This document shows, one piece after another, positions 14,805-19,739 of a stretch of 64,000 bases of DNA. How positions within the stretch are numbered: position 1 is the stretch's first letter; each line of letters starts with the position of its first letter. The stretch spans positions 62,001 to 126,000 of the forward strand of contig CAJQOH010000023.1 in the NCBI GenBank assembly GCA_905479915.1, in the 5' to 3' direction. A program made the position numbers and the translations under genes. Origin of the DNA: an uncultured Flavobacteriales bacterium. GTDB taxonomy: Bacteria; Bacteroidota; Bacteroidia; Flavobacteriales_E; Vicingaceae. The notes under the pieces were generated by a model, which was not told the origin of the DNA, made no database searches, and saw only the letters and a program-made list of their open reading frames with translations.

Positions 14805-17729
14805 CTAGTATCCGAATATCTCTTCTAAAGTAAGTTCTTGTACTTCACCCATTTCCTTGAGAACATCCATTTTAACTAGCTTTTTATTACCTATAACTAA
14901 GTAAGTGTAGTTTTTTCCTTTGATGTTAGCATTAAAGAATGTTTTTAAATCTTTTAATTCTAAGCTTTTGATTTGAGGATAAATTTTTTCGTTTAAATCA
15001 TAATCTCTCCCCATTTCTTTAGCAGATAAATAACGCCAGAATAAGTTAGAACGTTTCGTTCTTGAAGTTTCAATTTTCTTTAAAGCAGCTGTTTTAGCCC
15101 CTTGGAATTGGTCTTCAATTTCTGGCATATTGTTCATTAGCTCCATGATGGCAATTTTAGCATCACCTAATTTATCAACTTGAGTTCCTACATAAGCTCT
15201 TACATAATGAGATTTATTTGCTTTTCTTGGAGTTGTAAAGGCAGAATAAGCAGAGTAAGCCAATGCTTTAGATTCTCTAATTTCTTGAAAAACAATTGAA
15301 GATAATCCAGAACCAAAATATTCATTAAAAATATTTGTTGTTGCGGCTATATCACCATTGTATGGACCAGCATTAGAAAGCATCATTACTTCAGATTGTA
15401 CCATGTCATAATCCACAAAAAAGACCTTGTTGTTCTCCATTGTTAATTCAACAAACTCTTTGGCTGGAATTAATGGTTTTAACGTTTCTGGTGTTTTATG
15501 ATTTTCATTTAATATTGTTTTTACAGCTTCTATATCTTGTCTACCATAATAGTAAATGTAGTGCTCGTAAGATGTTAAAGCTTTAATTTTTGCAACTAAA
15601 TTTTCAGGATCAAGAGCATTCAATTCGTCTTTACTTAAAATGTTCTTCATTGGAGAATCCTCTCCATACATCCCGTGGTTCATTAAACCTCCATAAAGAA
15701 TAGCTCCTTTATTTAGTTTGAGATCAGCTCTGTCTTTTAATTTATCCGCAATGCCATTTTTTAAAGCATCTGGATTAGGTTCTACGTTAGCAAGGATGTG
15801 TTCGAATAACTTAATTCCTTCTTCTAATGATTCATCCAGTCCAGATAAAGTAACATATACTCTTTCTTCAGCTGCATAAACATCATAACTTAAACCAAGT
15901 TTAAATAATTCCAATTGTAGTTCATTGGCTGAATATTTATCTGTACCTAAATATTCTAAGTACTCAACAGCTAAAGCCATTTCTTTATCACTATATGAAC
16001 CCATATCTAAAATGTAGTTCAAGCTAAAAGTTTCGTTAGATGTATTTTCTACATAATAAAGAGGTACTCCAGAAGCTAATTTGTCTTCTTTGATATCTTC
16101 TTTATAGTTGTCAAAAATTGGAGTCATTCTTGAAGATTCCATTTTCTCGAAATTTAAAGCAAAAACTGATGCAGTATCTCTGTTTAGTTGAACTTGAGTT
16201 ATAGCTGGTTTTTCAACCTTAGGATTATCTCCTTCTCCAGTTTCTTTGTAAACTACTACATAATTGTTTTTAAAGTATTTGTTAGCAAAAGCAATGATAT
16301 CTGCTTTAGTAACCTTACTTAGTTTTTTGTTTTTGTTTACAACGGTAGACCATTCTTCACCCATGATAAAGGCATTGGTCATTTTTCCAGCTCTAACAGA
16401 GTTGTATTGGTTACGCTGTTGTTCACTTAATTTAAAATCTTTTATTACAGCAGGTAGCATCCATTCTTCGAATTCACCAGCTTTAATTTTTTCTACTTGT
16501 GCCAGTAATAAATCTTTTACTTCTTCTAAAGATTGACCTTCTCTTGGGTTTCCAGATAATTGGAAAACAGAATAATCTTTCATTGTGTTGGGGCTTGAGT
16601 AAGCATCTAACACTTTTTGTCCTTTAATTAAATCTAAATCAATTAATCCTGCCTGACCATTATTTAATAAACCATCAAAAAGGTTTAACATGTAAATGTC
16701 TTCACTTTTTACACCGGGTAATCTATAACCAATGTTTACCCATGAAGCATCACTTCCTTTTACAGTAACGTATACTGGTTCTGTAATTTCATCTTCTACT
16801 GCAGGAGTAAAAGTTGGTACTTCTTTACTTTTGTAATCTCCGAAGTATTTTTTGATTAAATCAACTGAGTTATCAGGGTTTAAATCACCTGAAAGAATAA
16901 TCGCCATGTTGTTCGCTACATATCTTTCATTAAAATATTGGTGAATTTTTTCCATTGAAGGATTTTTTAAATGTTCACTAGTACCAATTGTAGATTGAGT
17001 TCCGTAAGTGTGTTTTTTGAATAAGTTTTTAGACATTGTTTCATAGGTTAATCTATAATCATTGTCTTTTCCTCTATTGTACTCTTCATAAACAGCTTCT
17101 AACTCGGTGTGAAATAATCGCAATACCAATTCACTAAATCTTTCAGATTCGATAGAGAGCCATTTTTCGAATTCATTTGAAGGGATGTCATTGATGTAGA
17201 CCGTCTGTTCAACAGATGTGTAAGCATTGGTTCCTTTTGCACCAATAGAACTGATCATTTTGTCATATTCGTTTGGTACGGCAAATTTTGCAGCTTCACC
17301 AGAAACACTATCAATTTGATGGTAAATTGCTTTTCTTTCAGCTTCATCAGTTACGCTTCTTCTTTTTTCATATAAGTCAGAAATTTCTTTTAAAAGCACT
17401 TTTTCTGAGTCCCAATCGATGGTTGCAATTTTTGAGGTTCCTTTAAAAACCATGTGCTCTAAATAGTGAGCCAATCCAGTTGCATCAGAAGGGTCTTGTT
17501 TACTACCTGTGTTTACAGCAATGTTTGTTTGGATTCTTGGTTCGTTCTTGTTTACAGACATGTATATCTTTAAACCATTGTCTAAAGTATAAATTAAAGT
17601 GTTGGTAATATCGCCTTCAACAGTTTCGTATTCATATTTATACTTGTTTTTAACTTCTGGTTTAGTATCGTTACCACATGATGCAATAAAGAATACTATT
17701 GTGATTAGTGCTAATGCTTTAATTTTCAT
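14805..17729 (-). CDS. M16-family zinc metallopeptidase, lipoprotein
   Basis: Two-lobed pitrilysin/insulinase-type peptidase of 974 residues. A type II signal peptide ends in IASC with lipidated Cys at residue 18. The inverted zinc motif HxxEH is intact as HYLEH (H88, E91, H92) within GLAHYLEHMVFKGT. The downstream Glu ligand is in the ELEAVYEEYNRG region. The second half contains the inactive M16C-like lobes. It probably degrades peptides at the outer membrane or periplasm. Single-gene transcript with its own terminator. The start MKIKALAL gives the signal peptide directly. Confidence 0.93.
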   Translation of the reverse strand: MKIKALALITIVFFIASCGNDTKPEVKNKYKYEYETVEGDITNTLIYTLDNGLKIYMSVNKNEPRIQTNIAVNTGSKQDPSDATGLAHYLEHMVFKGTSKIATIDWDSEKVLLKEISDLYEKRRSVTDEAERKAIYHQIDSVSGEAAKFAVPNEYDKMISSIGAKGTNAYTSVEQTVYINDIPSNEFEKWLSIESERFSELVLRLFHTELEAVYEEYNRGKDNDYRLTYETMSKNLFKKHTYGTQSTIGTSEHLKNPSMEKIHQYFNERYVANNMAIILSGDLNPDNSVDLIKKYFGDYKSKEVPTFTPAVEDEITEPVYVTVKGSDASWVNIGYRLPGVKSEDIYMLNLFDGLLNNGQAGLIDLDLIKGQKVLDAYSSPNTMKDYSVFQLSGNPREGQSLEEVKDLLLAQVEKIKAGEFEEWMLPAVIKDFKLSEQQRNQYNSVRAGKMTNAFIMGEEWSTVVNKNKKLSKVTKADIIAFANKYFKNNYVVVYKETGEGDNPKVEKPAITQVQLNRDTASVFALNFEKMESSRMTPIFDNYKEDIKEDKLASGVPLYYVENTSNETFSLNYILDMGSYSDKEMALAVEYLEYLGTDKYSANELQLELFKLGLSYDVYAAEERVYVTLSGLDESLEEGIKLFEHILANVEPNPDALKNGIADKLKDRADLKLNKGAILYGGLMNHGMYGEDSPMKNILSKDELNALDPENLVAKIKALTSYEHYIYYYGRQDIEAVKTILNENHKTPETLKPLIPAKEFVELTMENNKVFFVDYDMVQSEVMMLSNAGPYNGDIAATTNIFNEYFGSGLSSIVFQEIRESKALAYSAYSAFTTPRKANKSHYVRAYVGTQVDKLGDAKIAIMELMNNMPEIEDQFQGAKTAALKKIETSRTKRSNLFWRYLSAKEMGRDYDLNEKIYPQIKSLELKDLKTFFNANIKGKNYTYLVIGNKKLVKMDVLKEMGEVQELTLEEIFGY

Positions 17730-17762
17730 AATAAGTTTTTTTATTTTTTTTGATGTTACAAA

Positions 17763-18446
17763 TTAAGCGTATCCTACATCCATATCCAACTTTTTTACAA
17801 GATCATTTAGATGTGGGTTTTTATCGCTCATTTTTACAAATTTTTCTTGAGGAGTATATGCCGTTTTTAGTTTTACGTCTTTATTAACCTCAGTAATGAT
17901 TTGTATATCGTAATTAGATAGTTCTTTCCTGATAAATTCTAAAAAATCTGCCTTTTGAGAATTGAATTCATCTTCTAGTGCTTTGTTTTCTATTAATAAA
18001 TTTATTGTATTGTCGTTTATTTCTGGAACAACCTCAAAGATAGAAGCTAAACTATCTTTCCCTTCTTCTTTAAGTAGTGCTTTAAAGCTTTTTATTCCGC
18101 TTGAAAATTCTTCTGGTGAATAATTTTCAGAGGGCTTATTGGTAATGTCTAGTTCAGCTTCTTTAGCAATTTCTTCTTTTTTAGCTGCTGGATTGATTGA
18201 AATAGAATTTGAAAAAGAAAGGTTAGAGCCTCTCTTTAAAGTTGGTTTTTCTGAAGGAGTGTTTTCAGGGCTGTTAGGTTTTAATCCTGAAGGATTTTCT
18301 TCATTGACTTCTGATGAAGAAGGTTCTGGGATAATGTAATTAGGGGTTGTTTTTTCTATTGCTGCATCACGTGCAGGGTCTTTACTTTGTTCAGTTTTTG
18401 GAGCAACAAGACCAGCCTTCTTGTTGAAAGGTAGATTAATTAGGGC
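17763..18446 (-). CDS. dnaX: DnaX tau-specific C-terminal region, reached by a -1 frameshift
   Basis: Open in the -1 frame relative to the upstream dnaX frame, with no good start of its own. From GCC at 18446 it encodes 227 residues. First comes a Ser/Pro/Glu-rich linker, then a folded C-terminal part containing EFSSGIKSFKALLKEEGK, INLLIENKALEDEF, FLEFIRKEL, and the end TAYTPQEKFVKMSDKNP. That ending is the conserved C-terminus of Bacteroidota DnaX. Joined at the slip site it gives a 598-residue tau. Tau domains bind DnaB and the polymerase alpha subunit. Either programmed frameshifting or slippage makes both tau and gamma, or the A10 run is one base short of the true sequence. Confidence 0.85.
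   Translation of the reverse strand, partial: ALINLPFNKKAGLVAPKTEQSKDPARDAAIEKTTPNYIIPEPSSSEVNEENPSGLKPNSPENTPSEKPTLKRGSNLSFSNSISINPAAKKEEIAKEAELDITNKPSENYSPEEFSSGIKSFKALLKEEGKDSLASIFEVVPEINDNTINLLIENKALEDEFNSQKADFLEFIRKELSNYDIQIITEVNKDVKLKTAYTPQEKFVKMSDKNPHLNDLVKKLDMDVGYA
18404..18426 (-). promoter_or_regulatory. Hairpin downstream of the dnaX slip site
   Basis: CAACAAGA and TCTTGTTG form a perfect 8-bp stem with a 7-base loop, beginning 19 bases after the A10-G run in the direction of translation. Frameshift-stimulating stems usually start 5-9 bases after the slip site, so a stimulatory role is uncertain. Confidence 0.35.
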
Positions 18447-19558
18447 TTTTTTTTTTGAGAAGTATTACCTTCTATAGAGCAAAGTTGCATTAGCATAACT
18501 TCAACCAGCAAGCGCTGGTTTTTACTCCCTTTGTATTTGGTATCGGTAGTGCTTGCAATATTTAAAAAGGAAATTAATTGAGCAGTATTGCTTGCTTTTG
18601 CTTGAGCAATATATTTTTCTTTAATAGTTGCTCCTACTTCTAATAATTGTACCGTTTTTTCATCTTGACAAACCAATAAGTTTCTTAAGTGTTCAGCTAG
18701 TCCATTAATGAAATTATGACCATCAAATCCATTATTCAATACTTCATTAAATAATAACAGCGCATCAGCAATGTTGTTAGATAGGATAGAGTTGGTTACT
18801 TTAAAGTAGTAATCATAATCTAATATGTTAAGGTTTTCTATAACATCTTCATAGGTAATTGTTCCTCCAGAAAAGCTAACAATTTGATCAAACATAGAAA
18901 GTGCATCTCTTAATGCTCCATCTGCTTTTTGTCCTATGATATGAAGTCCATCAGGCTCTGCCTTAACTTTTTCTGCTTTTGCAATGTGTGCTAGATGGTT
19001 TGATATATCGTCAATTTGTATTCTGTTAAAATCAAAAATCTGACATCTAGATAGTATTGTTGGGATGATTTTATGTTTCTCTGTAGTTGCTAAAATAAAG
19101 ATGGCATGCTTTGGAGGTTCTTCAAGGGTTTTTAAGAATGCATTAAATGCGGCTTGCGATAGCATGTGTACCTCATCAATAATGTAGACTTTATGAGTTC
19201 CTAATTGTGGTGCAAAACGGACTTGGTCAATTAAGCTTCTTATCTCATCCACTCCATTGTTAGAAGCTCCATCTAGCTCCTGAATGTTTAATGAACGACC
19301 TTCATCAAAAGAAATACAAGATTCACATTCATTACAAGCTTCAATGTTTGATGTTACATTAAAACAATTGATTGTTTTTGCTAGTATTCTGGCACAAGTT
19401 GTTTTTCCAACACCTCTTGGTCCGCAAAACAAAAATGCCTGAGCAAGATGATTGTTCTTGATGGCATTCTTTAAGGTTGAGGTAATAGAAAGCTGTCCGA
19501 CAACAGAATCAAATGTTGTAGGTCTGTATTTTCTTGCTGAAACAATGAAATTTTCCAT
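18440..19558 (-). CDS. dnaX: DNA polymerase III subunit gamma (DnaX, zero-frame product)
   Basis: Clamp-loader ATPase of 372 residues in the zero frame. Walker A is GPRGVGKT at 46-53. The four-cysteine zinc module is C65, C75, C78 and C81. The DEVHMLS Walker B, the TLEEPPKHAIFILATTE segment and the sensor ILSRCQIFDF are all present, as is the domain III helical collar. The frame ends SQKKKP-stop directly after CAA AAA AAA AAG, which contains the A AAA AAG heptamer in the same phase as the E. coli dnaX slip site. The rest of the protein lies in the -1 frame (17763-18446). A -7 box precedes the start. Confidence 0.93.
   Translation of the reverse strand: MENFIVSARKYRPTTFDSVVGQLSITSTLKNAIKNNHLAQAFLFCGPRGVGKTTCARILAKTINCFNVTSNIEACNECESCISFDEGRSLNIQELDGASNNGVDEIRSLIDQVRFAPQLGTHKVYIIDEVHMLSQAAFNAFLKTLEEPPKHAIFILATTEKHKIIPTILSRCQIFDFNRIQIDDISNHLAHIAKAEKVKAEPDGLHIIGQKADGALRDALSMFDQIVSFSGGTITYEDVIENLNILDYDYYFKVTNSILSNNIADALLLFNEVLNNGFDGHNFINGLAEHLRNLLVCQDEKTVQLLEVGATIKEKYIAQAKASNTAQLISFLNIASTTDTKYKGSKNQRLLVEVMLMQLCSIEGNTSQKKKP
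18446..18456 (-). promoter_or_regulatory. dnaX slippery run (A10 followed by G)
   Basis: The minus strand has ten A then G, read in frame as CAA AAA AAA AAG, with a zero-frame TAA two codons later. A -1 shift here joins the gamma frame to the tau C-terminal frame. A run this long also permits polymerase slippage and is a common site of assembly error. Confidence 0.8.
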
Positions 19559-19577
19559 TACCTAATTAATAAGGAAA

Positions 19578-19585
19578 CAAATATA
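19578..19585 (-). promoter_or_regulatory. -7 box TATATTTG of dnaX
   Basis: The minus strand reads TATATTTG, 19 bases before the dnaX start codon, in the 210-base gap shared with the divergent gene at 19769. No matching TTG is seen at normal spacing. Confidence 0.5.
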
Positions 19586-19739
19586 AATTTTATTCGGAAT
19601 CCATTTTTCTAAAGTTTGATATTTATTTATAAACATTTAGTGAACGTTTTCACATTCTATAAAGTAACCGAAAAAGAGTGTAATCTTACCGTTTAATAAA
19701 AGGAAGGTGCAATAGTGAAACTTAAGTATTAACTTGATT

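Follow-up and report, generated by a model that had tools for sequence, protein, structure and literature searches.

Organization of the split dnaX gene

The window, i.e. the whole 64,000-nucleotide stretch of DNA that was analysed, carries on its minus strand a dnaX gene divided between two reading frames. The reading of open reading frames, together with profile matches, revealed that the zero frame (positions 18440–19558) encodes a gamma-like product of 372 residues, comprising the AAA+ ATPase, the lid and domain III; against DnaX models this N-terminal product scored far over the cut-offs (TIGR02397, E = 1.1e-131). The 3' end of the frame reads CAA AAA AAA AAG CCC TAA, so that gamma would end in QKKKP, and contains a tract of 10 A's (18447–18456, with a G at 18446), which is the proposed slippage site. 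The zero-frame stop that ends gamma is the TAA at 18440–18442, one codon past the run, and a TAA of the +1 frame (18436–18438) lies two codons past it. The -1 frame (17763–18446, with its TAA at 17763–17765) is open for 227 codons plus the stop and constitutes the tau C-terminal region. These 227 residues resemble the C-terminal portion of PRK14971, a dnaX model of NCBIfam (positions 408–613; E = 1.1e-16, 60.8 bits, which is under the model's whole-protein cut-off), and no Pfam family matched them. An Rfam scan of positions 17700–19700 gave nothing up to E = 1. Either one extra A in the transcript or a slip of the ribosome to -1 would yield 371 + 227 = 598 residues, i.e. tau.

The initial annotation of this locus (dnaX split at A10, the 372-residue zero frame, the 227-codon -1 frame and the 598-residue tau) was reproduced on re-reading, coordinates included. 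Its statement that the A_AAA_AAG heptamer stands in the same phase as the E. coli dnaX site was confirmed at 18446–18452 (minus strand), where an additional ribosomal slip is possible, and its expectation of both tau and a shorter gamma is upheld as a prediction.

The genome that contains the window (G000; 74 contigs, 97.5% complete) yielded a single full-length match to DnaX, besides five weak partial matches. By identity of the N-terminal part, the nearest relative of the window gene is L004 (94%), likewise a split gene; among uninterrupted genes L005 comes closest (92%). In 11 of 11 pairs examined, the substitutions in the tau part peaked at the third codon position (for L001 and L005, 42/18/92 at positions 1/2/3), and this bias argues that the split genes still encode a constrained tau C-terminus. 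The tau parts of L001 and L004 are only 59% identical, against 94% for the DnaX N-terminal parts of the same pair, and the tau parts of L001 and L005 are 78% identical; recombination or fast drift are possible explanations of this mismatch.

The window gene is a further member of the two-ORF dnaX type of Antonov et al. (2013; PMC3711429), in which tau requires recoding. The part of that paper available to us reports 17 such genes from 12 genera, nine with 10 A's, for which transcriptional slippage was proposed; the input of that study included 22 Bacteroidetes genomes, so some of the nine A10 genera may belong to the Bacteroidetes. As in those genes, gamma of the window lies in the zero frame, tau in the -1 frame and the poly-A at their junction.

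Distribution of the A-run among dnaX loci

The survey covered 290 dnaX loci: 42 of the family of the window organism, 80 of named relatives chosen by similarity alone, 138 of the same class (Bacteroidia, as judged from the named relatives) and 30 of other classes of the phylum. The class set combines 49 best matches with 89 loci chosen by hand, with a preference for split genes, so that frequencies are better judged from the named and family sets; the 80 named loci are themselves the closest in sequence and not a random sample. The family set was drawn from 46 genomes and gave 42 loci with the site; five genomes had no full match (G003, G005, G009 and G024 are unrepresented, and G037 is represented only by a fragment). 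Repeats (L062–L066, L309) and other genes (L002–L003, L014–L030) were left out before counting. The 290 loci include two identical pairs (L040/L067 and L105/L236), and a third flagged pair proved to be two contigs ending near the site. The run was measured as the longest stretch of A's within 240 nt after the fixed anchor NQRLLVE.

This analysis revealed a run of 9–13 A's at the site in 237 of the 290 loci (9 in 36, 10 in 181, 11 in 17, 12 in one and 13 in two). The longest run was of seven or fewer in 53 loci and of exactly eight in none, so that 237 of the 243 loci with at least seven A's have at least nine. In six of these 53 loci the longest run is A7, which in three (L192, L210, L258) stands close to the usual position; such sites may have decayed or may serve the ribosome. 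Nine or more A's were found in all 42 family loci (A10 in 38, A9 in three, A11 in one), in 66 of the 80 named and 122 of the 138 class loci, and in 7 of the 30 from other classes. The run is a feature of the window's class, with exceptions. Elsewhere in the same genes, runs of at least nine A's occurred 14 times in 468,646 nt (0.007 per 240 nt), and the run at the site is therefore not due to chance; it is also found in GC-rich surroundings (GC of at least 0.50 in 23 of 236 run loci).

Alignment of close relatives, which the initial annotation had proposed as a check, revealed an intact A10 in the split loci L001 and L004 as well as in the uninterrupted L005. The annotation had also reckoned with uninterrupted relatives lacking the run, and the nearest uninterrupted relative has the same A10; the bases that follow it in L001 and L004 differ from those of L005.

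The idea that A10 is unique to dnaX was rejected, since G000 has A/T runs of at least 10 in 12 places. Six of the 11 besides dnaX lie inside stop-to-stop frames of at least 100 codons, five with runs of 10–11 A's on the coding strand (on contigs C7, C16, C23, C56 and C63; L317, L319, L321, L325 and L326). The 30-nt 5' flanks of these six sites fold with 0 to -4.9 kcal/mol, two of them as strongly as the flank of the window run, though not adjoining the run.

Frame of tau and stops in the other frames

Tau continues in the upstream frame (frame 0) in 171 of the 237 run loci; relative to that frame, 61 loci have it at -1 and five at +1 (single-assembly errors being possible in a few of these five). 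In the family, the frame is 0 in 32 loci and -1 in 10. The run ends in all three codon phases (130/62/45; n = 237). A lysine-rich linker as the cause of the run was rejected on this ground, because a run kept for lysine would hold its phase.

Stops follow closely in both frames other than that of tau: they were met within five codons in 92% (-1) and 89% (+1) of 236 loci, counted relative to the tau frame, as against 40% and 36% at control positions deeper in these tau regions. The named run loci (n = 66) gave 89% and 88%, with control values of 36% and 35%. Both stops lie within eight codons in 214 of the 236; exceptions are L190 (13 and 17 codons) and L195 (85). The presence of the run in all three frames and phases, together with near stops in both off-frames, indicates that the tract is maintained at the nucleotide level and would function whatever the frame.

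A FastTree phylogeny of 288 DnaX N-termini (L013 and L061 were omitted from it and from the comparison that follows) implied at least 34 changes of the tau frame among 235 run-bearing tips, a number that tree errors would inflate. When the 66 split loci were each compared with the nearest uninterrupted locus, run length agreed in 40 pairs and differed in 26 (18 and 12, respectively, when identity was at least 80%), the pairs being non-independent. In the pairs of equal length the frame was changed outside the run; changes of run length also occur, as in L007/L006 and L168/L176.

Hairpin immediately upstream of the run

The minus strand of the window also contains a hairpin, AGAAG-GTAATA-CTTCT (18458–18473; -4.6 kcal/mol), located 1 nt 5' of the A-run and proposed here as a nascent-RNA stimulator of slippage. 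It was absent from the initial annotation. L004 and L005 have a 5' stem at the same position. On its own, the window hairpin falls short of significance (-4.6, compared with a mean of -2.4, SD 1.8, for synonymously recoded sequences).

The signal is strong for the set as a whole. In a scan with 28-nt windows (up to 237 loci), the 28 nt ending at the run folded 2.45 ± 0.17 kcal/mol more stably than dinucleotide shuffles, no other distinct window went beyond -0.77, and the one 8 nt further upstream gave +0.02. The last hairpin ends 0–3 nt before the run in 170 of the 237 loci, and none is formed in eight. Synonymous recoding at each gene's own codon usage cost the site 2.01 ± 0.17 kcal/mol (0.03–0.91 in five upstream control windows), and chimeras in which 5' arms were exchanged at equal spacing lost 2.27 ± 0.20 kcal/mol (n = 131).

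The excess is seen whatever the tau frame (frame 0, -1.91 ± 0.20; -1, -2.05 ± 0.32; +1, -5.03 ± 0.95, n = 5), and in the named (-2.79 ± 0.34) and family (-2.56) sets. It is weaker in A9 genes (-0.90 ± 0.43; n = 30), and the seven run-bearing loci of other classes gave no hairpin signal (+0.35). Loci lacking the run offer no tract as a reference point and were therefore scanned at a range of offsets; they had no such peak (windows of +0.6 to about -1.1). RNAalifold found zero consensus pairs in 33 flanks, and fixed-register (column-dealing) pairing tests were moderately above shuffles (z from 0.7 to 4.9), the registers having been picked afterwards; the weight of the argument is therefore placed on the recoding and arm-swap controls. 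The register and sequence of the hairpin drift among loci.

Proposed mechanism

The RNA–DNA hybrid within a transcribing RNA polymerase is 9–10 bp long. A stem abutting about 10 A's would accordingly sit where the nascent RNA leaves the hybrid. We propose that, once the tract has been copied, the hybrid would consist entirely of rA:dT pairs, with the short RNA hairpin forming just behind it; the hybrid could then realign, giving transcripts with A9, A10, A11 and so on. Those in which tau is in frame would be read into tau by ordinary translation, which in the window would require a net gain of one A or loss of two (598 residues), and the remaining transcripts would give gamma, since stops in both non-tau frames would end translation within a few codons. 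Were both products drawn from such a heterogeneous mRNA population, insertion or deletion of one base within the tract or next to it would shift the DNA frame of tau at little cost, as has happened repeatedly.

Slippage at comparable sites has been described. The Thermus thermophilus dnaX slips at nine A's, with stops near in both other frames and two products (PMC5009743, PMC1088944). The window resembles it in having at least nine A's, near stops in both non-tau frames and two predicted products, whereas tau of Thermus is in the zero frame and that of the window in -1; the tau frame is uninterrupted in 171 of our 237 loci. In the Roseiflexus IS630 element a stem-loop is 5' adjacent to the slippage motif T5C5 and slippage is stem-loop-assisted (PMC5009743); in IS1447 an A9 tract follows a stem-loop and slips both ways, about 16% each (PMC6211511); and in tssM slippage occurs at A11 (PMC4256274). 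The position of the stem-loop directly 5' of the motif is common to the two IS elements and to dnaX, where it is strong for the set and present, though non-significant, in the window alone. However, these elements encode transposases, in contrast to a replication gene across a large group, and the Roseiflexus hairpin drives base loss, whereas the window tau needs a gain of one base or a loss of two.

From the geometry of hairpin and tract and from the precedents in the Roseiflexus element, IS1447 and Thermus dnaX, we consider slippage of RNA polymerase to be the mechanism shared by these loci. It is thus probable that dnaX carries a frame-indifferent cassette, composed of a hairpin, about 10 A's and off-frame stops, on which the polymerase slips; that it does so, in which direction and in what ratio, we infer from the arrangement of these elements. 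On balance we also favour the broader view that, in much of the Bacteroidia, both clamp-loader proteins are produced through one inherited, frame-blind combination of hairpin and hybrid-length A-tract, the DNA frame being nearly neutral and having drifted among 0, -1 and +1 dozens of times.

Alternative explanations

The mechanism offered by the initial annotation was a ribosomal slip of the E. coli type aided by a 3' hairpin, with Thermus-type RNA polymerase slippage as a further possibility; for the gene group the former is the weaker analogy and the latter fits better. Programmed -1 frameshifting at A_AAA_AAG, i.e. the E. coli dnaX mechanism with the roles reversed (tau being the frameshift product), has precedent in the reversed dnaX type mentioned by Atkins et al. 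(2016) and suggested for Chlorobium (PMC5009743, in the part available to us). The window shares with E. coli dnaX the heptamer in correct phase and the same two expected products (PMC5009743, PMC3711429), and the only tRNA-Lys seen has the anticodon UUU, in an incomplete list (31 tRNA matches, none of them a tRNA-Glu; 150 of the 291 candidates were scored). Yet the heptamer is in this phase in only 20 of the 61 split genes with tau in -1, and the five genes with tau in +1 are out of reach for a -1 ribosomal slip. Moreover, selection for a -1 ribosomal slip would preserve A_AAA_AAG without calling for a stop in the third frame, whereas stops are enriched in both off-frames; seven A's suffice for the heptamer, although no locus has a run of eight and 181 of 237 have 10.

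As for stimulators, the hairpin that the initial annotation placed 19 bases downstream does exist (18404–18426, minus strand; 8 bp, -7.5 kcal/mol, 19–20 nt from the run), but its stem is absent in L004, L005 and L006 and it is probably incidental. Over the set, downstream 50-nt folds were slightly better than the control (mean z of -0.48 against -0.14; z below -1.5 in 19% against 11%). The presence of the window hairpin and this slight excess count in favour of a ribosomal slip, but a 3' hairpin was rejected as stimulator because near relatives lack it and the excess is so small; the 106-nt context of the window run folds no better than shuffles (z = +0.48), and L004 has a different 3' structure (z = -3.3). 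SD-like 5-mers (six were searched) occur within 20 nt 5' of the run in 11% of 237 flanks, as against 1.7% in the control, spacing aside, and none of the six is present in the 20 nt before the window run; as these 5-mers occur in a minority of flanks, an SD-like stimulator was not favoured. GGAG touches the run in many of the aligned sequences. Unlike in E. coli dnaX (PMC5009743, PMC3711429), the tract is longer, the roles are reversed, a 3' stem-loop and SD are not conserved, and the strong hairpin signal is 5', mostly 0–3 nt away, so close that a ribosome occupying the run would be expected to keep it unfolded. We consider ribosomal frameshifting unlikely as the general explanation; in the window organism a ribosomal share could be added to slippage or replace it. 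Much less likely still is a real split in which the run serves as a replication-slippage (phase-variation) switch, cells carrying A9, A10 or A11 chromosomes. Homopolymer tracts do mutate readily, and run length differs from that of the nearest uninterrupted locus in 26 of the 66 split loci (12 of 30 at 80% identity or more). On the other hand, it is the same in 40 of the 66 (pairs that are not independent), length 10 predominates, and dnaX is a replication gene with a single full-length match in the window's own genome. The least probable reading, and a very improbable one, is an assembly error or a decaying gene, the former having been raised by the initial annotation as a missing A. G000 is a draft and homopolymers are error-prone; nevertheless, other assemblies are split too, including 10 of the 42 family loci (L004 among them) and one-contig genomes of other families (L220, L222, L310), substitutions in the tau part favour the third codon position in every pair examined, and L001 shares its A10 with the uninterrupted L005 while differing in the bases after it.

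RNA polymerase slippage thus remains the preferred reading. The two-ORF A10 dnaX is known from Antonov et al. (2013), and the frame-indifferent cassette with its 5' hairpin is apparently new. The part of that paper available to us (PMC3711429) treats split genes only, and in it we found no uninterrupted run-bearing relatives, class-wide paired stops or 5' hairpin. In the literature searched we found no report of the run in uninterrupted dnaX of the class, of class-wide paired off-frame stops or of a 5' hairpin in dnaX; an earlier mention is possible, e.g. in the supplement of Antonov et al.

According to a 2012 review (PMC3290774, in the part available to us), most bacteria keep no dnaX frameshift signatures and may not make gamma. 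The presence of the cassette in 66 of 80 named, 122 of 138 class and 42 of 42 family loci suggests that a large group makes two forms and that selection keeps the short one, and its retention bears on the old question of the purpose of gamma. If slippage is indeed responsible, an essential gene would here have its reading frame determined by RNA polymerase and not by the DNA. In species with a split gene, single-frame gene callers would be expected to annotate a truncated DnaX.

dnaX variants lacking the run

Split genes were also found at L217 (genome G212) and L135, with tau in -1 and +1, respectively, and no homopolymer of six or more within 330 nt of the anchor. The apparent stop of L121, at a contig end, lies in sequence that we take to resemble a Nextera transposon end, and is probably an assembly artefact.

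Some uncultured Bacteroidales have a dnaX that lacks the A-run and has an in-frame TAG at the gamma end, beyond which tau continues in the same frame (201–254 codons). The context CCN TAG ATT GCW AGG TCG CC is shared by L117, L146/L363, L360, L361 and L362, and in a family search centred on the genome of L146 this type was found in 4 of 101 genomes, that genome included. TAG also terminates other long stop-to-stop frames in those loci, and the in-frame TAG suggests programmed stop-codon readthrough serving the same end.
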